NCBI RefSeq assembly: GCF_003234565.1
Contig: NZ_QKTU01000006.1
Location: 62,001 to 126,000 of the forward strand
Direction: 5' to 3'
From: Curtobacterium sp. MCBD17_013
GTDB lineage: Bacteria > Actinomycetota > Actinomycetes > Actinomycetales > Microbacteriaceae
Length of the DNA stretch: 64,000 bases
Below are positions 32,108 to 41,698 of the stretch, piece by piece; position 1 is the stretch's first letter, and every line of letters begins with the position of its first letter. The notes beneath the pieces were generated by a model, which had not been told where the DNA came from, ran no database searches, and worked only from the letters and a program-made list of their open reading frames with translations. The translations under genes were made by a program, and so were the position numbers.

Positions 32108-32977
32108 TCAGGCGGTCTCGACGGGGTGCAGGTCGAGCGTGCAGCACTTGACGCCACCGCCGCCGAGCACCAGCTCGGACAGGTCGACCCCGATCGGGTT
32201 GTACCCGCGCTGGCGGAGCTGCTCGGCGAAGGTCGTCGCGCGGGCCGCGATGACGACGTTGTGGCCGTCGCTGTAGGAGTTGAGCCCGAGGATCGCGGCG
32301 TCCTCCTCGGTGGCGATGATCGCGTCGGGGAACCGGCGGTGGAGCTCGGCGAGCGAGGCCTCGTCGAACGCGGACTCCAGGTAGGCGATGTTCGCGACGC
32401 CGTCCACCGGCTCGGGGTCGAGGACCGCGATCGCGGTGTCGAGGTGGTAGAACGCCGGGTTGACGAGCTTCAGGGTGACGACCTCGCGGCCGTACACGCG
32501 GGCGATCTCCTCGTGCGAGGTGCTGTCGCTGCGGAACCCGGTGCCGGCCAGGATGACGTCGCCGACGAGCAGGAAGTCGCCCTCGCCCTCGTTCGTCTCG
32601 ACCGGCTCGGCGACGCGGAGGCCGTGCTCGCGGAACCAGTCCATGTACGCGGGGCCCTCGGGCTGGCGCTCCGGGTACTGGAACTTCGCGCCGTAGGCGA
32701 CGCCGTCGAGCACGAACCCGCCGTTGGCCGCGTAGACCATGTCGGGCAGCCCCTCGATCGGGTCGATGAAGTGGATGTCGAACCCGAGCCGCTCGTACGT
32801 GTCGACGAGGGTCTGCCACTGGGCGACCGCCTTCGCGGTGTCGGTCGGCTCCTCGGGGTGCATCCAGGGGTTGATGCGGTAGCTCACGGTGTAGTGCGTC
32901 GGCTTGCACATGAGGACGGTGCGCTTGGTCGCCGTGCGGGCGGGCGCTGGGGTGGTGGCGGGGGCCGGGTTCGACAA
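32108..32977 (-). CDS. ddaH: Dimethylarginine dimethylaminohydrolase / amidinotransferase family
   Basis: A 289-residue guanidino-modifying enzyme that releases citrulline from methylated arginines, or hydrolyses a related guanidino substrate. Family landmarks are MCKPTHYTVSYRINPWM (about 23-39), NEGEGDFLL with the acidic catalytic residue, the catalytic His in NPAFYHLDTA, and the nucleophile Cys278 in GGGGVKCCTL. The start is a TTG with AGGAG 5 nt upstream. It is divergent from an Lrp-type regulator that probably controls it. In other actinobacteria this enzyme often sits with rocD; no rocD is here. Confidence 0.85.
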   Translation of the reverse strand: MSNPAPATTPAPARTATKRTVLMCKPTHYTVSYRINPWMHPEEPTDTAKAVAQWQTLVDTYERLGFDIHFIDPIEGLPDMVYAANGGFVLDGVAYGAKFQYPERQPEGPAYMDWFREHGLRVAEPVETNEGEGDFLLVGDVILAGTGFRSDSTSHEEIARVYGREVVTLKLVNPAFYHLDTAIAVLDPEPVDGVANIAYLESAFDEASLAELHRRFPDAIIATEEDAAILGLNSYSDGHNVVIAARATTFAEQLRQRGYNPIGVDLSELVLGGGGVKCCTLDLHPVETA

Positions 32978-33216
32978 GGGGTCTCCTGGGCGGCGGACCC
33001 GAGCCTGCCAGGGGACACCGTTCGAGGAGCGCTGGGGTGAGGTGCAGGCTCACTCACCCGTGGACGAGGCGGACCAGGTCGACGCCCCGGCACAGTGTGC
33101 CACGCGGCGCTCCCCGCGGACAGACCCCGCCGTGGGGGTGTCGCGGCGGCGCCGATCGCATGTGCGTCCGCGCAGGATCCGTGCGCCTGCTCCGGGGCGG
33201 ACGCAACGACCGCGCG

Positions 33217-33222
33217 TAGCAT
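33217..33222 (+). promoter_or_regulatory. -10 hexamer of the Lrp-type regulator gene
   Basis: TAGCAT lies 7 nt before the ATG at 33230 and itself overlaps a possible ATG at 33221, which argues for the downstream start. Confidence 0.45.
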
Positions 33223-33229
33223 GACGGCG

Positions 33230-33667
33230 ATGGATTCGCTCGACCACCGCATCCTCGACCAACTCCGCGAGAACGCCCGCGCCGGCTACGGCGACATCGG
33301 CGCGGTGGTCGGGCTCTCGGCGTCCGCGGTGAAGCGCCGCGTGGACCGCCTGGTGGCCGATGACGTCATCCAGGGCTTCACGATCAAGGTCGACCCCGCT
33401 GTCGAGGAACGCGGCACCGAGGCCTGGGTCGAGCTGTACTGCCGCGGCACCGTCTCGCCCGACGAACTCCGCGCCGTGCTCGAGAACGTGCCCGAGGTCG
33501 TCGACGCCGGAACGGTCACCGGGAGCGCCGACGCCGTCGTGCACATGCGGAGTCGGGACATCGCGTCGCTCGAGGAAGCCCTCGACCGCGTCCGCTCCGC
33601 CCCGCACGTCGACCACACCCGCAGTGCGATCGTGCTGTCGCGACTCGTCTCGCGCGAGTCGCTGTGA
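33230..33667 (+). CDS. Lrp/AsnC-family transcriptional regulator
   Basis: A 145-residue regulator. The N-terminal winged helix (MDSLDHRILDQLRENARAGYGDIGAVVGLSASAVKRRVDRLVADDVIQGFTIKV) is followed by an Lrp ligand-binding (RAM) domain. The start at 33230 gives the canonical LDHRIL opening and matches a leaderless promoter; an ATG 9 nt upstream is the alternative. Divergent from ddaH, it probably responds to an amino acid such as arginine or a methylated derivative (inference). Confidence 0.9.
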   Translation: MDSLDHRILDQLRENARAGYGDIGAVVGLSASAVKRRVDRLVADDVIQGFTIKVDPAVEERGTEAWVELYCRGTVSPDELRAVLENVPEVVDAGTVTGSADAVVHMRSRDIASLEEALDRVRSAPHVDHTRSAIVLSRLVSRESL

Positions 33668-34159: not shown

Positions 34160-35020
34160 GTGGAGCTCATCGAGGCGATCAGACGGCGACGGACGACGAA
34201 CGGGGCGTTCCTGCCCGATCCCGTCTCCGAGGAACACCAGCGTCTGCTGATCGAGCTCGCCGGGCGGGCGCCCTCGCAGCTCAACAGCCAGCCGTGGCGG
34301 TTCGTGCTCGTCGAGGAACGGCCGACGATCGAGCGGATCGCCGCGATCAGCGGCTCGTCGATGACGCGGACGATGGCCGAGGGCACGTTCTTCGAGCGGT
34401 ACAAGCCGTACTTCCGGTTCTCGAAGGCCGAGATGGAGGCCCGGCGCGACGGCATGCTGTTCGACAAGCTGCCCGCGCCGCTCCGACCGTTCACGAAGCA
34501 GGTGTTCACGCCCCGCGGCCAGAAGCTCATGAACACGCTGCGGGTGCCGCAGACCCTCGGCGAGGAGAACCGGAAGCTCGTCGCGGGATCACCGCTGCTG
34601 ATGGGGGTGATGCTCGACCGGCACGAGTACCGGCACGAGGAGACGAACGCGTTCTACTCCGTGTTCAGCATGGGCGCGGCGATGGAGAACATCTGGCTCG
34701 CCACGACCCAGCTCGGCATGGGCATCCAGTTCGTGTCGTTCCCGATGGAGATCCCGAGCGCCTGGGCCGAGGTCGAGGACGTCCTCGGGGTGCCGGACGA
34801 CCTCGAGCTCATGGCCGTGTACCGGCTCGGGTACCTGCCGCCCGAGCGCCGCCGGCCCGCGATCGACTGGGTGTCGAACGAGCGGAAGCGGCCGTCGCAG
34901 TACGTGTTCCGCGGGACGTGTCGCACGCCGCAGACGGGCTGGGACGACGCACCGCTCGTGACGCCGATCGAGGACGACCCGGCGGCCGACGCGACGACCT
35001 CGGGGAGGGACGCGTCGTGA
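34160..35020 (+). CDS. Nitroreductase-family protein
   Basis: A 286-residue flavin oxidoreductase. [21 protein letters not shown] at the N-terminus and the FMN-phosphate segment [13 protein letters not shown] (about 39-51) are typical. The second conserved region, [22 protein letters not shown], and the C-terminal [17 protein letters not shown] complete the fold. GAAGG lies 8-9 nt before the GTG start. It overlaps the next gene by 4 nt (GTGA). The substrate is unknown. Confidence 0.85.
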
Positions 35021-35814
35021 CGGGGGTCGCTCCCGTCCTGACGACCGCCCCGGCACTGCCCGGCCGCGCGTTCATCCGGCAGGGGTGGCACGACGTCGTG
35101 TTCCTGCACTGGCGGGTCGACGTGTCGGCCGTGGCCCCGCTCCTCCCGGCCGGCGTCCGACCGGACACCATGGGCGCGGACGGCGTCGACGACGGGGTGA
35201 CCACCTGGGTCGGCCTCATCGGGTTCCGGTTCACGGACACCGCGTTCCCGCCGCTCGCGCCGATGCGGCGGCTCGGGACGTTCGTCGAGGTCAACGTGCG
35301 GGTCTACACGGTCGACGACCGGGGGCGGCACGGCGTCGTGTTCCTGTCGCTGGACGCGGGCCGGTTCCTGCCGGCGGTCGCGGCACGGGCGATGCTCGGG
35401 CTGCCGTACCACTGGGCGCACGCGGCGACGCGGTGGGGCGGGGACGGGACGCGCGGCCGGGGTGCCGCCGCTGGCCGACACGGCGAGGGCGGCCGCGTGG
35501 CGTACGCGATGCGGCGCCACGGGTCCTCGGCGCGCTCGCGGTTCGCCGTGCACGTCGGTGCGCCCATCGCCGAACCGTCACCGCTCGAGCAGTTCCTGAC
35601 CGCCCGGTGGGGCATGCACGTCCACCGCTTCGGGGCGACCCGGTTCTGGCCGAACGAGCACCCGGCCTGGCCCCTGCACCACGCGAGGGCCGAGTCGGTG
35701 CACGACGACCTGATGGGCGAGGTCGGGCTGCCGCGCTCGCTCGCCGACGTCCCGCCGGACTCCGTGCTGTGGTCGCCCGGTGTGACGACGTCGTTCGCCC
35801 GCGGGACGGCCTGA
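35017..35814 (+). CDS. DUF2071 (YqjF-like) protein
   Basis: A 265-residue protein of the DUF2071/acetoacetate-decarboxylase-like fold: [77 protein letters not shown] and LTARWGMH are the usual stations. The biochemical role of the family is not established. It is co-translated with the nitroreductase gene (GTGA overlap), so the two may act in one redox or detoxification step. Confidence 0.82.
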
Positions 35815-35876: not shown

Positions 35877-38800
35877 TCAGACCCGCAGCTCCACGAACGC
35901 CCGATCCGGCACCCCGAACCGGTGCGCCGTGATCGTCACGGTCTGCTCGCGGAGGAACGGCAGCATCTCGACGAGTCCGGCCTCGACCACGGGGCCCGCG
36001 TGCACCGCCACGTCGATCGAGGCACCGAGGGCCTCCTCGAGCGCCAACGGGTCGCCGCCGAGCAGGCGGATCCGGGCGCCGGGACCACCGAACGCGGTGT
36101 GCGGCACCGGCTCGTACGTCGGCGACAGGACCGCGGCGAGCTCGTCCTCGGGCGTGGGCTCGTCCGACGACCACTGCTCACGGAACACCGCGCCGGCCGC
36201 CGCGCGCCCGAGCCACTCGTCGTCGGACTCGACGACGTGGTCGACGACGTGGAGCGGGGACCGCGGACCGGCGAACAGCTGCACGAGGCTGCCGGGCAAC
36301 GGCACCGCGGTGCTGACGAGCACGTGGGCGCGGGCGGCGGTCGCGGCGACGAGCACGCGGACGAGGTCACCGGCCGACGTGCCCTCGGACGCGCGGACGA
36401 TGACCGACTGGGGCCGGTAGCGGAGCACGTTGCGTTCCACCCCGAGACCGGCGGTGTCCGCCGGGCGGGCGAACTCCGCGGAGCGCGCGGCGACGTCGCT
36501 CCGTGCCCCGGACCGCACCCGGTCGAACTCCTCGAACGTCAGGCCGCTCCGCGCGGCCTCGATCACGGCCGCGATCCGGGCCGGGACGCCGTGCAGTCGG
36601 ATGCTGCCGTGCGGGGTGTGCGGCGTGGGCTCCCAGCGGCCGAGTGTCGCGACCGACAGCGGGGCGCCCGACTTGGTGCCGGTGCCGATCGCGGAGCGCT
36701 TCCAGCCGCCGGTGGGCTGTCGGCGGACCAGGGTGCCGGTCGTCGCACGGTTCACGAACAGGTCACCCGCCTGCACGCGGTCGAGCCAGCGGGCGACCTC
36801 GTCGGTGTCGAGGGAGTGGATGCCCGCGGCGAGACCGTAGTCCGTGCCGTTCTGGATCGCGATCGCGTCGTCGAGGGTCTCGGCCTCGACGATCCCGAGC
36901 ACGGGTGCGGGCACGGGCGTCTGGTGGAACGTGCTGCCCTGTCGGACGCCGTCGCGGATGCCCGGGGACCAGAGCCGCCCGGAGTCGTCCAGGGGCCGCG
37001 GCTGCAGGAGCCACGACTCCCCCGGTCCGAGCTCGGTGAGTGCCTGCCGCACACTCCCCCGGGGCTCGTCGACGAGCGGTCCCATCTGGGCGGCGGGGTC
37101 GTCGGGCCAGGCGACGCGGAGGCTCCGGGTCGCGTCGACGAGCAGCCGGCGGAACCGGTCGTCCTCACGCACGGCACCGACGAGGACGACGAGCGACGCC
37201 GCCGCGCGGTCCTGCCCGGCGTGGGCGAAGGCGCTCCGCACGACGTCGCGGACGGCGAGGTCGACGTCGGCGGACGGCGTCACGACGATCGCGTTCGTGC
37301 CGGTCGTCGCGGCGGTGAGCGGGAGGCCCGCCCTCCACCAGGCGAAGGACCGCGCGGTGTCCGCCGTGCCCGTGAGGAGCACGCGGTCGACCGCGGGGTG
37401 GGCGACGAGGTCGCGGCCGAGCCGGTCGACGTCGAGGTCGACGAGGACGAGCAGCGAGTGCGGCACCCCGGCGTCCCACAGGACGTCGGCCACGAGCGCA
37501 CCGGTCCGCCGAGCGGCCGGTGCCGGCTTGAGCACGACACCGCTGCCGGCCGCGATCGCCGCCAGGACGTCCCCTGCGACGACGGCGATCGGGGAGGTCC
37601 AGGTCGGCACGACGACGGTGAGGCGCGGCGGCACCGGGGTCGCGCCCGTGATGTCCGCGAGGTGACGGGCGCGGTCGGCGGCGTGGTGTGCGGCGTCGAC
37701 GGCTCGGCCCACCTCGGCGTCTGCCTCGGCGAGCGTCGAGCCCGTCTCGGCGACGGCGACCTCGACGAGGTCGCCCCGCCGGACCTCGAGCTCGTGGGCG
37801 ATGAGGTCGAGCAACTCGGCGCGGTCCTGCGGGTCCTGCCGTCCCCAGTTCACGCCCGCCTGCGCGGTGGCTGCGACGATGCGCTCGAGCCGGTTCCGGT
37901 CGGCGACGCCCGCGTTCCGGATCGTCTGCCGACCGAGCGACGATCCCGGCACGCGACGCAGCACCTCGCCGGCCCAGGCGCGGTTGGCGCGGATGGTCGG
38001 GTCGGTGCCCTGCGCGTTGTGGAAGTCGGCGACGTGCGGCGGGGGTCCGAGCGGGGCCGTGCGGTCCTGGGTGCGGAACGTCGACGGGACGGGGTCGTCC
38101 AGCGCCTCGACCGCGGCCAGGTACCGCTCGCGCCGCTGCTCGGACCCGGCGCTCGCGGTGTCGGTCGTCGTCGAGGAACCCGCGGCCTGCTCGGGGTCCG
38201 CCAGCTCGTACAACCGCCGGGCGAGGTACCCGACGGCGGCGTCGTACTCGTCGGGGTCGACGACCGGTGTGACGAGGAACACCGACCCGACGTCGGCCCG
38301 GACGGCCTGCAGGTGGGTGCCGTCCACGCCGAGGAGCATGCCGAGTTGGAGGGCGTCGACGACACCACGGCGCTCGGCGAGCACGCGGGCGGTGGCGAGG
38401 TCGTACAGGTCGTGCCCGAGGACCTCGATCCGGACGGCGTCCGTCCGCGCGGGCGTCAGCGCGGCGTCGAGCAGGCGGAGGGTCGCCGCCTGGATCTCCT
38501 GTGTGGTGCCGAACGTGGCCAGCGGGCGGTCGTGGAGCGCTGCCTCCACCCGTTCGACGGGGTCGGCGGCGCCGGCGTCGATCCGGACGGTGATCGGTGA
38601 TCCGCCCCGGGCGCGGCGGGCCTGCGACCAGGCGGTGAGGTCGTCGAGGGCACGCCGGGTGTCCGGCACCGCGGCGGGCAGGGTGAGGCCCGCCGGGAGC
38701 TCGAGGAACTCGGGCCGGTCGAGCAGGGTCCGGAACACCGCGAGCGTCAGGTCGAGGTCGTCGTGGGTGTCCACCCGGAGCGTGACGCGGCTGCCACCCG

Positions 38801-39428
38801 CCACGGCCGCCCGGTACAGCGGCAGCAGGCGCTCGACTCCGCGGACGACGGTGTCGTCGAACGCCCAGAGCACGGGCTGCGGGAGCGCCACGGCGACCGA
38901 GGTGGTGACGCGGTCCACGCCGTCGCGGTCGAGCAGGTCGATGGTGCGCCGGAGCTGCCGGTCGGACTCGTCGTCACCGGACACCGGGCGTCCGAGCGGC
39001 AGGACGTCGAGCACCGTGCCCGGGACCGCCAGCTTGGCGAGGGCGGCGCCGAGGCGTGCCGGTGCGGCGTCGACCACGAGGTGTCCGGCCATGCGGCGCA
39101 GCACACGGCGTGCCGGTGGGACGACGGCCCACGGCATCATCTGCGCGAACCCACCGCCGACGGTGGCCGCGCCGCGGAGGTGCCAGGCGACCGGGTCCGG
39201 GACCTCACGCGCGAGTCGTTCGAGGTGCTGCGCGGCGACCTTCGGGTCCTGCGGTCGGCCGACGCGGTCGATGAACCCGAGCGTGACGTCGAGGCCGCGC
39301 TCGTCGCGGAGCACCCCCGCGAGCCGGACGGCCCCGGCGTCCGGCCGGAGCATCGCGGCCGCCGCGGTCCAACGGCGGACGAGGGCGACCGCGTCGTCGG
39401 TGCAGTCCTGGAGGCGCGGGTCCGGCAT
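35877..39428 (-). CDS. PutA-like protein with degenerate proline dehydrogenase and aldehyde dehydrogenase active sites
   Basis: An intact 1183-residue frame collinear with actinobacterial PutA (proline dehydrogenase, then glutamate-semialdehyde dehydrogenase). The active sites are lost. In the ALDH half the catalytic Cys of GQKCSAAS is Arg741 (GQDRAAAS), the Glu of AETSGKNA is Ala707 (AATTGTNA), the Asn of PWNFP is Thr611 (TWTSP), and EFFGP reads PVPAP (838-842). In the PRODH half the Lys of VSVKVSS is Ser177, LQAYLPD reads LPAAVPD (250-256), and RLVKGA(Y/N) reads RIDAGAA (282-288); the Arg pair near 404-405 is retained. No frameshift or stop is present. TACCAT 6 nt before the ATG suggests leaderless expression. 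The canonical motifs are from memory of the family; a non-enzymatic role is inference. Confidence 0.85.
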   Translation of the reverse strand: MPDPRLQDCTDDAVALVRRWTAAAAMLRPDAGAVRLAGVLRDERGLDVTLGFIDRVGRPQDPKVAAQHLERLAREVPDPVAWHLRGAATVGGGFAQMMPWAVVPPARRVLRRMAGHLVVDAAPARLGAALAKLAVPGTVLDVLPLGRPVSGDDESDRQLRRTIDLLDRDGVDRVTTSVAVALPQPVLWAFDDTVVRGVERLLPLYRAAVAGGSRVTLRVDTHDDLDLTLAVFRTLLDRPEFLELPAGLTLPAAVPDTRRALDDLTAWSQARRARGGSPITVRIDAGAADPVERVEAALHDRPLATFGTTQEIQAATLRLLDAALTPARTDAVRIEVLGHDLYDLATARVLAERRGVVDALQLGMLLGVDGTHLQAVRADVGSVFLVTPVVDPDEYDAAVGYLARRLYELADPEQAAGSSTTTDTASAGSEQRRERYLAAVEALDDPVPSTFRTQDRTAPLGPPPHVADFHNAQGTDPTIRANRAWAGEVLRRVPGSSLGRQTIRNAGVADRNRLERIVAATAQAGVNWGRQDPQDRAELLDLIAHELEVRRGDLVEVAVAETGSTLAEADAEVGRAVDAAHHAADRARHLADITGATPVPPRLTVVVPTWTSPIAVVAGDVLAAIAAGSGVVLKPAPAARRTGALVADVLWDAGVPHSLLVLVDLDVDRLGRDLVAHPAVDRVLLTGTADTARSFAWWRAGLPLTAATTGTNAIVVTPSADVDLAVRDVVRSAFAHAGQDRAAASLVVLVGAVREDDRFRRLLVDATRSLRVAWPDDPAAQMGPLVDEPRGSVRQALTELGPGESWLLQPRPLDDSGRLWSPGIRDGVRQGSTFHQTPVPAPVLGIVEAETLDDAIAIQNGTDYGLAAGIHSLDTDEVARWLDRVQAGDLFVNRATTGTLVRRQPTGGWKRSAIGTGTKSGAPLSVATLGRWEPTPHTPHGSIRLHGVPARIAAVIEAARSGLTFEEFDRVRSGARSDVAARSAEFARPADTAGLGVERNVLRYRPQSVIVRASEGTSAGDLVRVLVAATAARAHVLVSTAVPLPGSLVQLFAGPRSPLHVVDHVVESDDEWLGRAAAGAVFREQWSSDEPTPEDELAAVLSPTYEPVPHTAFGGPGARIRLLGGDPLALEEALGASIDVAVHAGPVVEAGLVEMLPFLREQTVTITAHRFGVPDRAFVELRV

Positions 39429-39434
39429 CCTCCG

Positions 39435-39440
39435 ATGGTA
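39435..39440 (-). promoter_or_regulatory. -10 hexamer of the PutA-like gene
   Basis: TACCAT on the minus strand, 6 nt before the ATG at 39428. Confidence 0.45.
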
Positions 39441-39573: not shown

Positions 39574-40515
39574 TCAGTGGAAGCGGTGGTCCTGGATCGT
39601 CATGCGCGGACCGAACGACGGCTTCCGGAAGCCGCTGCCCGTGATGAGCCGCATGACCCGTTCCCGGTGTCCGCGCCACGGCTCGAGGAGCTCGAGCATG
39701 CCGTCGTCGTCGACCGGAGCGCCGGCGAGCGCCCATCCCACGACGGCCGGCAGGTGGTAGTCGCCGACGCTCGGTGAGTCCGGGTCGCCGTGGGAGCGCT
39801 GCGTGGTCTCGGCGGCGGTCCACACGCCGATGCCCGGGATCGACATGAGGCGTTCCGCCACGACACTGCCGCCACGACCGAGGGACAGGGTCCGCTCGAG
39901 CGACGCGGCGACCCGCACGGCGCGCATCACCGTCGCCGAGCGGCCGGGCTCGATCCCCGCCCGGTGCCACTCCCAGCTCGGCACCCGCGCCCAGGTGTCG
40001 GCGTCGGGCGGGACCGCCATGCCCTCGGGGGCGGGGCCAGGCGCCGGGGTGCCGTACCGCCGGACGAGGGACCGCCAGGCGCGCCAGGCCTGGCGGCTCG
40101 TGACCTTCTGCTCGAGGATCGCGGGCACGAGCATCGCGACGACGGTGTTCGTGCGGCAGAGGCGTAACCCCGGCTGACGGTGTCGCGCCGCGGCGAGGAA
40201 GGCGTTGCCGCTGACGTCGAACCCCGTCCAGTCGTCACCCCGACCGAGGAGTTCCGGCGCGTGCGCGATCGCCCACTCGGCGCCGTCGCCCCAGGTGGAC
40301 ACCCGGACCTCGTCGCCGACGGCGCGGACGGCGACGGTCACGGGACCGGCGGGCGTGCGGAGCGCGAGCCAGGTCGTGGCGTCGACCTGTCGGAAGGCAG
40401 GGTCCCCCGTGCCGCGCATGAGCGGGCGCAGCGTGGCCCGGACGTCGACGTGGTGCCCGGGCCGGTAGACGGTGTCGTGTCGCTGCGCCGGGGGTGCGGC
40501 AGGTTCGACGATCAC
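39574..40515 (-). CDS. DNA-3-methyladenine glycosylase II-type protein (AlkA-like, HhH-GPD)
   Basis: A 313-residue base-excision glycosylase. The N-terminal half is a TBP-like fold. The HhH-GPD half includes ILEQKVTSRQAWRAWRSLVRRYG, the hairpin SIPGIGVWTAAET and the catalytic Asp region SPSVGDYHLP. It would remove alkylated purines. GTG at 40515 is chosen because TACGAT lies 7 nt before it (leaderless pattern). It is adjacent to, but separate from, the PutA-like gene. Confidence 0.87.
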   Translation of the reverse strand: MIVEPAAPPAQRHDTVYRPGHHVDVRATLRPLMRGTGDPAFRQVDATTWLALRTPAGPVTVAVRAVGDEVRVSTWGDGAEWAIAHAPELLGRGDDWTGFDVSGNAFLAAARHRQPGLRLCRTNTVVAMLVPAILEQKVTSRQAWRAWRSLVRRYGTPAPGPAPEGMAVPPDADTWARVPSWEWHRAGIEPGRSATVMRAVRVAASLERTLSLGRGGSVVAERLMSIPGIGVWTAAETTQRSHGDPDSPSVGDYHLPAVVGWALAGAPVDDDGMLELLEPWRGHRERVMRLITGSGFRKPSFGPRMTIQDHRFH

Positions 40516-40522
40516 GCGGAGG

Positions 40523-40528
40523 ATCGTA
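40523..40528 (-). promoter_or_regulatory. -10 hexamer of the glycosylase gene
   Basis: TACGAT on the minus strand, 7 nt before the GTG at 40515. Confidence 0.45.
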
Positions 40529-40669
40529 CGTGGCGGCGGTGACATCGCCGAACCGGCCGGGGTGGGCCTCCCGGGAAGCGGAGGGGATGCCGTCGTCGAC
40601 CCGGTCCGCGATGATGGGGACCACCGCGCGGCCGGACGGGCCGGGCCCGACACCACGGAGTGCTCCCTC

Positions 40670-41698
40670 ATGCGCATCGGCATCCTCACCAGCGGCGGCG
40701 ACTGCCCGGGGCTCAACGCGGTCATCCGCGGCGCCGTCGTCAAGGGCATCGCGATCCACGGGCACGAGTTCGTGGGGTTCCGTGACGGCTGGCGCGGCGT
40801 GGTGCAGGCGGACGTCGTGCCGCTCGGTCGCAAGGAGATCCAGGGGATCGCCAAGCAGGGCGGGACGATCCTCGGCACGAGCCGGACGAACCCGTTCGAG
40901 GGCGAGAACGGGGGCGCCGCGGCGATCGCGGCGAACCTCGACCGGCTCGGCATCGACGCGATCATCGCGATCGGCGGCGAGGGCACCCTCGCCGCCGCGC
41001 GCCGCCTCACGGACGCGGGCCTCAAGATCGTCGGGGTGCCGAAGACCGTCGACAACGACCTGAGCGCGACGGACTACACGTTCGGCTTCGACACCGCGGT
41101 GCAGATCGCGACCGACGCCATGGACCGGCTCCGGACGACGGGCGAGTCGCACAGCCGCTGCATGGTCGCCGAGGTGATGGGACGCCACGTCGGGTGGATC
41201 GCCCTGCACAGCGGCATGGCGGCCGGGGCGCACGCGATCCTCATCCCCGAGCAGAAGACGAGCATGGCGCAGATCGCGGACTGGGTGCGCTCGGCCCACG
41301 ACCGCGGTCGGGCGCCGCTCGTCGTCGTCGCCGAGGGGTTCGTGCCGGACCAGGAGGACGACCCGCACTCGGAGCGTGGCCTCGACGCGTTCGGTCGCCC
41401 GCGCCTGGGCGGCATCGGCGAGCGCCTCGCACCGCTCATCGAGGGCATGACGGGCATCGAGACCCGCGCCACGACGCTCGGCCACATCCAGCGCGGCGGG
41501 ACCCCGACGTCGTACGACCGGGTGCTGTCCACGCGGCTCGGGATGGCGGCGATCGACTCCGTGGTCGAGGGACGCTGGGGCCGCATGGTCGCGCTGCGCG
41601 GGACGGACATCGTGCACGTGTCGTTCGCCGACGCGATCGGCGAGCTCAAGACGGTGCCGCAGGAGCGCTACGACGAGGCGGCGATCCTGTTCGGCTGA
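40670..41698 (+). CDS. pfkA: 6-phosphofructokinase
   Basis: A 342-residue phosphofructokinase. TSGGDCPGLNAVIRG opens the ATP site; the substrate motif is PKTVDND (124-130), with the catalytic Asp; MGRHVGWIALHSG and LGHIQRGGTP complete the active site. The nucleotide motif is GGEGT (102-106), with Gly where PPi-dependent enzymes have Asp, combined with the Lys of PKT. That pairing is the actinobacterial group III type, expected to use ATP. GGAG lies 9 nt before the ATG. Confidence 0.95.
   Translation: MRIGILTSGGDCPGLNAVIRGAVVKGIAIHGHEFVGFRDGWRGVVQADVVPLGRKEIQGIAKQGGTILGTSRTNPFEGENGGAAAIAANLDRLGIDAIIAIGGEGTLAAARRLTDAGLKIVGVPKTVDNDLSATDYTFGFDTAVQIATDAMDRLRTTGESHSRCMVAEVMGRHVGWIALHSGMAAGAHAILIPEQKTSMAQIADWVRSAHDRGRAPLVVVAEGFVPDQEDDPHSERGLDAFGRPRLGGIGERLAPLIEGMTGIETRATTLGHIQRGGTPTSYDRVLSTRLGMAAIDSVVEGRWGRMVALRGTDIVHVSFADAIGELKTVPQERYDEAAILFG

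Follow-up and report, generated by a model that had tools for sequence, protein, structure and literature searches.

The window analysed here, 64,000 nucleotides of Curtobacterium sp. MCBD17_013 (contig NZ_QKTU01000006.1, positions 62,001 to 126,000), carries a gene, putA2, for a full-length relative of the bifunctional enzyme PutA, in which a proline dehydrogenase (PRODH) and a glutamate semialdehyde dehydrogenase (GSALDH), a member of the aldehyde dehydrogenases (ALDH), are joined in a single chain. Both catalytic cores are substituted in the encoded protein, PutA2, which raises the question of why such a gene is retained. Comparison of orthologues suggests that PutA2 is probably a conserved PutA pseudoenzyme, in which a second, fold-dependent function would have been kept while catalysis was handed over to another copy, PutA1.

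Domain architecture and active sites of PutA2

The putA2 frame is located on the minus strand and runs from an ATG at 39428 to a stop codon at 35877 without internal stops. The protein contains a Pro_dh domain at residues 149-408 (Pfam, E 2e-18) followed by an Aldedh domain at residues 501-917 (E 3e-74), which is the order found in PutA, and its top match in the PDB is the PutA structure 5ux5 (E 1e-184), with which it is collinear over residues 7 to about 1012, an additional weak match being located at residues 1115-1173. In its architecture, PRODH and then ALDH in a single chain, PutA2 thus belongs to PutA, and its length falls within the range of 1100-1200 residues given for type B PutA (PMC5293562). 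It scores 195 bits against the NCBIfam PutA model NF008869, whose cut-off is 747, a value obtained without the score of an intact actinobacterial PutA as control. The ribbon-helix-helix domain of trifunctional PutA was not found in the Pfam scan of the protein, and the 5ux5 alignment starts at residue 7.

The window protein was compared by alignment with intact PutAs, among them 37 PutA1 proteins. In the PRODH domain it has S177 in place of Lys, P251 in place of Gln, A253 in place of Tyr, A285 in place of Lys, A288 in place of Asn and Val in place of Y386, so that the catalytic and FAD residues expected of a PutA are missing at positions 177, 251, 285 and 386. The catalytic Asn, Glu and Cys of the ALDH domain are replaced by T611, A707 and R741, and residues 838-842 read PVPAP instead of the EYFGP of PutA. 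Retained active-site residues comprise R282, H339, Y401, R404, R405, W610, K634, N712 and Q739; R282 and H339 are taken here to be part of the FAD pocket, and W610 and K634 part of the NAD pocket. In total, the protein differs at 94 of 439 otherwise universal positions. In the PutA of Sinorhizobium, Lys265 and Arg488/Arg489 bind proline and pyrroline-5-carboxylate (P5C), Asn707 forms the oxyanion hole, and Glu810 and Cys844 complete the set (PMC12398946). According to the residue matching made in this analysis, the two arginines are retained in the window protein, while Lys, Asn, Glu and Cys are replaced.

The original prediction had described the frame as uninterrupted and collinear with PutA and had named the catalytic and FAD-site substitutions; the former agrees with the Pfam order and the 5ux5 match, and the latter are real, as all of them align in place with the 37 PutA1 proteins and the intact PutAs. 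Catalytic residues at shifted positions were not seen in any of three alignments. A second genome of the same species, G178, encodes a PutA2 with 99% amino acid identity (1171/1182) and identical substitutions, which makes an assembly error an unlikely cause of the changes.

Graded and repeated loss in Curtobacterium

All 66 Curtobacterium genomes searched yielded matches, two or three each. Sixty-three full-length PutA2 proteins were compared; only open frames of 1000 amino acids or more were admitted, so that the absence of stop codons is partly a result of selection of the data. The PutA2 of G009 and G026, split across two frames, and that of G180, located at a contig end, are not included in these counts; the G026 genome is 65% complete and its PutA1 is split as well. 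Lengths of the 63 proteins range from 1178 to 1192 amino acids.

K177 is lost in 37 of the 63 proteins and C741 in 34; both are lost in 33, the window protein among them, and both are retained in 25. When wider cores of four PRODH and three ALDH residues are considered, and a single changed residue is scored as loss, 17 proteins retain both cores, 38 retain neither, seven retain only the PRODH core and one only the ALDH core. Severe erosion, with at least two of the four PRODH and at least two of the three ALDH residues changed, is found in 22 proteins, including that of the window. The sister of the window protein, in G167, has an eroded PRODH site and 15 of 16 ALDH positions retained, with only the cysteine changed (C741A). 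The replacing residues vary: C741 is exchanged for R, A, S, P, T and others, and K177 for A, S, D, R, T and others, while R282, R405, Q739 and P842 are invariant in all 63 proteins.

On the PutA2 gene tree (FastTree, rooted with three intact PutAs from other genera, loss-only changes allowed), provisional minimum counts are eight losses for K177, seven for C741 and six double losses; for the wide cores they are nine (PRODH) and 13 (ALDH). Forty positions are fixed (at least 95%) in both intact and eroded PutA2 and differ from the native PutAs found in 22 other genomes; of these positions, eight lie within residues 501-550, a stretch which is otherwise variable. Residues 494-545 (37794-37949) vary in other native PutAs, whereas in PutA2, intact or eroded, many of these positions are fixed. 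This stretch may be a contact surface, although sequences of a single genus always look more similar.

Selection on putA2

The ratio of nonsynonymous to synonymous substitution rates (dN/dS) was estimated by a pairwise codon model of GY94 type with F3x4 frequencies, implemented in a purpose-written script. It is 0.021-0.058 over 20 pairs of PutA2 with both wide cores lost, some genomes being used in more than one pair, and the smallest likelihood ratio (LR) against a value of 1 is 60. For the window gene and its same-species partner in G178 the ratio is 0.041 (LR 98). Joint estimates are 0.042 for eroded PutA2 (11 pairs), 0.019 for intact PutA2 (six pairs) and 0.021 for PutA1 (nine pairs, residues 1-1000); constraint on the eroded copies is weakened about twofold but persists. 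By region, the eroded copies show values of 0.060 for the PRODH barrel and 0.076 for the linker, and lower ones for the ALDH domain (0.027) and the C-terminal region (0.029). Where both were measured, dS of the eroded pairs is similar in magnitude to that of PutA1, and a hidden overlapping gene is therefore not needed as an explanation.

The GC content at third codon positions is about 94%, and a neutral simulation of 13 species pairs produced just 0.7-1.9 stop codons per pair, with none in 16-47% of runs. Since stops would be rare under neutrality at this GC content, their absence proves little, and the constraint must be deduced from dN/dS; it is on this ground, and not by the lack of stops, that neutral decay is rejected. 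Of the 439 positions that PutA1, the outgroups and intact PutA2 have in common, the eroded set has lost 85 and kept 213. The losses are enriched at active-site positions, affecting 13 of 24 of these compared with 72 of the 415 others (Fisher p 9e-5), the active-site positions having been listed in this analysis after the alignment was inspected.

Both features expected of a pseudoenzyme are thus found: purifying selection with dN/dS of about 0.04, and, as judged from sequence, descent from an active enzyme with subsequent loss of the motif, as indicated by the intact orthologues in the genus and by the same locus elsewhere. The original prediction, that PutA2 is a pseudoenzyme selected for a non-catalytic role, is supported insofar as purifying selection is evident, and neither shifted catalytic residues nor dN/dS near 1, the findings it had named as speaking against it, were encountered. 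Its picture of a wholly non-catalytic protein has to be qualified, as erosion varies in degree and has occurred repeatedly, with many orthologues retaining the look of active enzymes, and its argument that a decaying gene would show stops is weak in view of the simulation.

The second PutA of Curtobacterium

Profile search of the window genome revealed two Pro_dh matches and no third: putA2 and a canonical PutA1 at G000:C35:8523, with 47% identity. A second, canonical putA had been proposed as something to look for; it exists, yet it belongs to another clade. PutA1 was obtained full-length from 37 of the 66 genomes, and the seven core residues (K177, Q251, Y253, K285, N611, E707 and C741) are intact in all 37. 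PutA1 and PutA2 share about 45-48% identity and form separate clades, that of PutA1 also containing PutAs from other families of the order in a midpoint-rooted tree.

Compared with G178, the putA1 gene of the window strain (G000:C35:8523-11944, L194) shows a gap of one base around codon 1031. Of 23 amino acid differences between the two proteins, 14 are derived in the window strain, and eight fall at sites invariant in all 35 others. The window strain may lack PutA-mediated proline oxidation, or the gap may reflect an assembly error.

The putA2 locus

The positions of the features are listed in the table below. The predicted promoter-like hexamer is real in the sense of a leaderless-type promoter: a TANNNT hexamer is located 5-8 nt upstream of the start in all 63 PutA2 orthologues. 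A strict sigma-70 consensus scan found no promoter at putA2, and a consensus scan likewise found no terminator. The 6-phosphofructokinase (PFK) gene, the conserved open reading frame (ORF) without Pfam match, which presumably resembles a DNA glycosylase, the Lrp/AsnC-type regulator and the DDAH-like gene also surround intact putA in G062 and G145, and the latter two genes both occur within about 10 kb of 10 intact putA loci in other genera; at the remaining intact putA loci this pair was not seen within the 10 kb examined. Because the locus is shared with active putA of other genera, PutA2 is read as the native copy.

A MarR-family gene is present in the examined stretch at 60 of the 63 PutA2 loci, intact and eroded. 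It is divergent and directly upstream of putA2 in L118 (7418-7933), L122 and L127, the loci viewed; relatives are divergently placed beside putA in G062, G145 and G093; in G064 the distance to putA is about 1.8 kb. In G178, putA2 and the DUF2071 gene are separated by an extra ORF of about 260 amino acids (L189:11107-11892); in the window strain the interval measures just 62 bases.

Table. Features of the putA2 locus in the window
Feature	Position	Strand	Basis
putA2, gene of a 1183-aa PutA-like putative pseudoenzyme, stop codon included	35877..39428	-	open frame, Pfam, PDB match
PRODH barrel, residues 149-408: K177S, Q251P, Y253A, K285A, N288A, Y386V; R282, H339, Y401, R404, R405 kept	38205..38984	-	Pfam, alignment
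ALDH/GSALDH domain, residues 501-917: N611T, F612S, E707A, C741R, E838P, G841A; W610, K634, Q739, N712 kept	36678..37928	-	Pfam, alignment
C-terminal region, residues 926-1183, where type B PutA has its C-terminal domain; still constrained in eroded PutA2 (dN/dS 0.029)	35880..36653	-	
Codon 177, Ser replacing substrate-binding Lys	38898..38900	-	alignment
Codon 611, Thr replacing oxyanion-hole Asn	37596..37598	-	alignment
Codon 707, Ala replacing conserved Glu (ETSGKN motif)	37308..37310	-	alignment
Codon 741, Arg replacing catalytic Cys	37206..37208	-	alignment
TACCAT, TANNNT-type -10 hexamer, 6 nt before ATG (leaderless-type promoter)	39435..39440	-	sequence
DUF2071 gene, convergent neighbour at conserved locus	35020..35814	+	
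Lrp/AsnC-type regulator; adjoins putA in several other genera too	33095..33667	+	
DDAH/arginine-deiminase-like gene; adjoins putA in several other genera too	32108..32977	-	
Conserved ORF preceding putA2; its translated stretch has no Pfam match	39577..40530	-	
6-phosphofructokinase, edge of conserved neighbourhood	40472..41698	+	

Eroded PutA in other genera of Microbacteriaceae

Of the 19 two-copy genomes from other genera, 18 were analysed (G103 was left out; the locus L226 of G130 is incomplete and L222 of G069 has a gap at residue 177). One eroded PutA is encoded in six of them (G075, G093, G107, G131, G133 and G138), in each of which the second copy retains the tested residues. No eroded PutA was found among 22 single-copy genomes (Fisher p 0.005, kinship ignored), a control set taken from 63 one-match genomes, almost entirely from the best-scoring ones, so that a low-scoring eroded single copy could be missed. 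A wider search identified eroded PutA in G447, G422, G275, G320 and G225 and a partly eroded one in G321. Altogether, eroded PutA occurs in seven Microbacteriaceae genera besides Curtobacterium; in the tree, the eroded copies do not fall within the clade formed by the second, intact copies. The genomes G422, G275, G320, G225, G321, G133, G138 and G093 each carry a second Pro_dh gene. Eroded loci outside Curtobacterium include L228 (G131), L230 (G075), L217 (G107), L116 (G138), L234-L237 and L240 (all from one genus), L245, L248 and L096.

Alternative explanations

PutA2 could serve the active PutA1 as a subunit, structural or regulatory, that tunes its activity in mixed oligomers. This is, in line with a general statement in PMC10650815, a common route for pseudoenzymes of oligomeric enzymes, and it would be consistent with the co-occurrence of both copies in Curtobacterium genomes and with the strongest constraint being found in the ALDH and C-terminal parts. 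PutA1 comes from another clade and has less than half of its residues in common with PutA2, however, and in the window strain PutA1 carries the one-base gap and the eight changes at otherwise invariant sites while PutA2 is conserved, which makes a role as its partner less likely; we regard this explanation as unlikely, if the foremost of the alternatives. The recruitment of PutA2 to a new reaction with rebuilt active sites appears improbable. Although the constraint and the retained parts of the assumed FAD and NAD pockets (R282, H339, W610 and K634) could be accommodated, the residues at catalytic positions such as C741 and K177 differ by lineage, which fits loss rather than one reaction, and the old sites are retained in the intact orthologues.

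An equally doubtful proposition is that some copies still run one half-reaction, the family being a transitional one and not wholly non-catalytic. The seven PutA2 with only the PRODH core, the single one with only the ALDH core, and the G167 protein, in which only the ALDH cysteine is lost, are what such partial enzymes would look like; against this, K177 and C741 are both gone in more than half of the orthologues, that of the window included. As for simple decay in a GC-rich genome where stops are rare, the few stops expected in the simulation, the 94 substituted universal positions of the window protein, the raised GC at codon positions 1 and 2 and the frames split in two of the 66 genomes would all agree with it, but it is contradicted by the dN/dS of the eroded pairs, and with the gene present in 66 of 66 genomes and its length and promoter hexamer conserved it is very improbable.

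Several observations weigh against a conserved pseudoenzyme with a second function. The loss counts are provisional because support falls below 0.9 at 21 of the 63 nodes of the PutA2 tree. Several PutA2 have lost just one core, some via a single conservative change (N611S), and such copies may retain activity. The sampled eroded copies mostly exceed the two intact ones in GC at codon positions 1 and 2, a sign of partial relaxation. The MarR-family neighbour is missing in the window species (G000, G178) and in G158. In other genera, both copies look intact in 12 of the 18 two-copy genomes, and a second PutA therefore permits but does not force erosion. G447 (L235) has an eroded PutA with a single Pro_dh match in an assembly 96% complete in 210 contigs, and it does not fit the two-copy rule unless the second copy is missing from the assembly. 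The eroded copies of G107, G075 and G131 have no Lrp, DDAH-like or PFK neighbours, and constraint in another genus is weaker, with a dN/dS of 0.132 for G133/G447 (the pairs G133/G422 and G422/G275, with saturated dS, were left out).

Proposed origin and function of PutA2

With these points considered, the conserved pseudoenzyme remains the favoured reading. PutA2 would derive, without a change of locus, from the native and active PutA of Microbacteriaceae, which probably had a second function needing the fold but not catalysis, such as binding of a ligand, a cofactor or a partner protein. After PutA1 from another clade took over proline oxidation, both active sites of PutA2 may have been free to erode, and this would have happened several times independently while the non-catalytic function stayed under selection. 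We infer that PutA2 lacks catalytic activity and that its second function is older than the losses, as the protein was kept through many independent losses and each lineage would otherwise have had to invent a function of its own. Since constraint is stronger in the ALDH module and the C-terminal region than in the PRODH barrel, the former two are the likelier working part. A ligand-sensing or partner-binding mode seems the likeliest, given the retention in the window protein of R404 and R405, on the side of the proline carboxylate, and of W610 and K634. The roles of regulator, scaffold or proline sensor suggested by the original prediction are candidates at this stage. Whether the native PutA of Microbacteriaceae in general has an old catalysis-independent function, perhaps proline or NAD sensing or scaffolding, of a kind broad enough to allow repeated loss of the sites, we consider an even bet.

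The closest known system is bifunctional PutA, with 5ux5 as the nearest structure, which PutA2 resembles in domain order and in sequence along the chain and from which it differs in the substitution of both catalytic cores. A precedent for a second, non-enzymatic function of PutA is provided by the trifunctional PutA of E. coli, which is both an enzyme and a DNA-binding repressor (PMC5293562); it keeps catalysis and has the ribbon-helix-helix domain, which was not found in PutA2. On the ALDH side, ALDH16A1 is a pseudoenzyme with the ALDH fold and without catalytic residues, thought to work via protein contacts (PMC10650815). This dead relative resembles PutA2 in its substituted catalytic residues, but it is a human protein. 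Moreover, as we understand it, ALDH16A1 is not a PutA and has no PRODH half. Repeated loss has a parallel in the fungal Dis3L2/Ssd1 pseudonucleases, in which active-site mutations arose at least four times with conservation of a second function, explained by that function being already present before the losses (PMC8097288). These are unrelated enzymes, and the second function there is backed by phenotype.

The original prediction knew of no such paralogue, and no PutA pseudoenzyme was found among the titles and opening lines of abstracts of the matches listed from the open literature, several lists covering the best-ranked 8-20 of up to 687 papers and most subscription papers being outside its coverage; Curtobacterium and putA as whole words occur together in no paper of the open full-text collection searched. 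If the proposed history is true, actinobacterial PutA would be a moonlighting protein without the DNA-binding domain that explains the moonlighting of trifunctional PutA, and a hidden job would be predicted for a familiar metabolic enzyme. A two-site enzyme of 1200 residues that repeatedly loses both sites under strong selection represents a natural experiment separating the fold from the chemistry, and a single genus offers intact, half-eroded and fully eroded PutA2 for direct comparison. For the genomes concerned, annotation of these genes as 'proline dehydrogenase' can be misleading as to their function.

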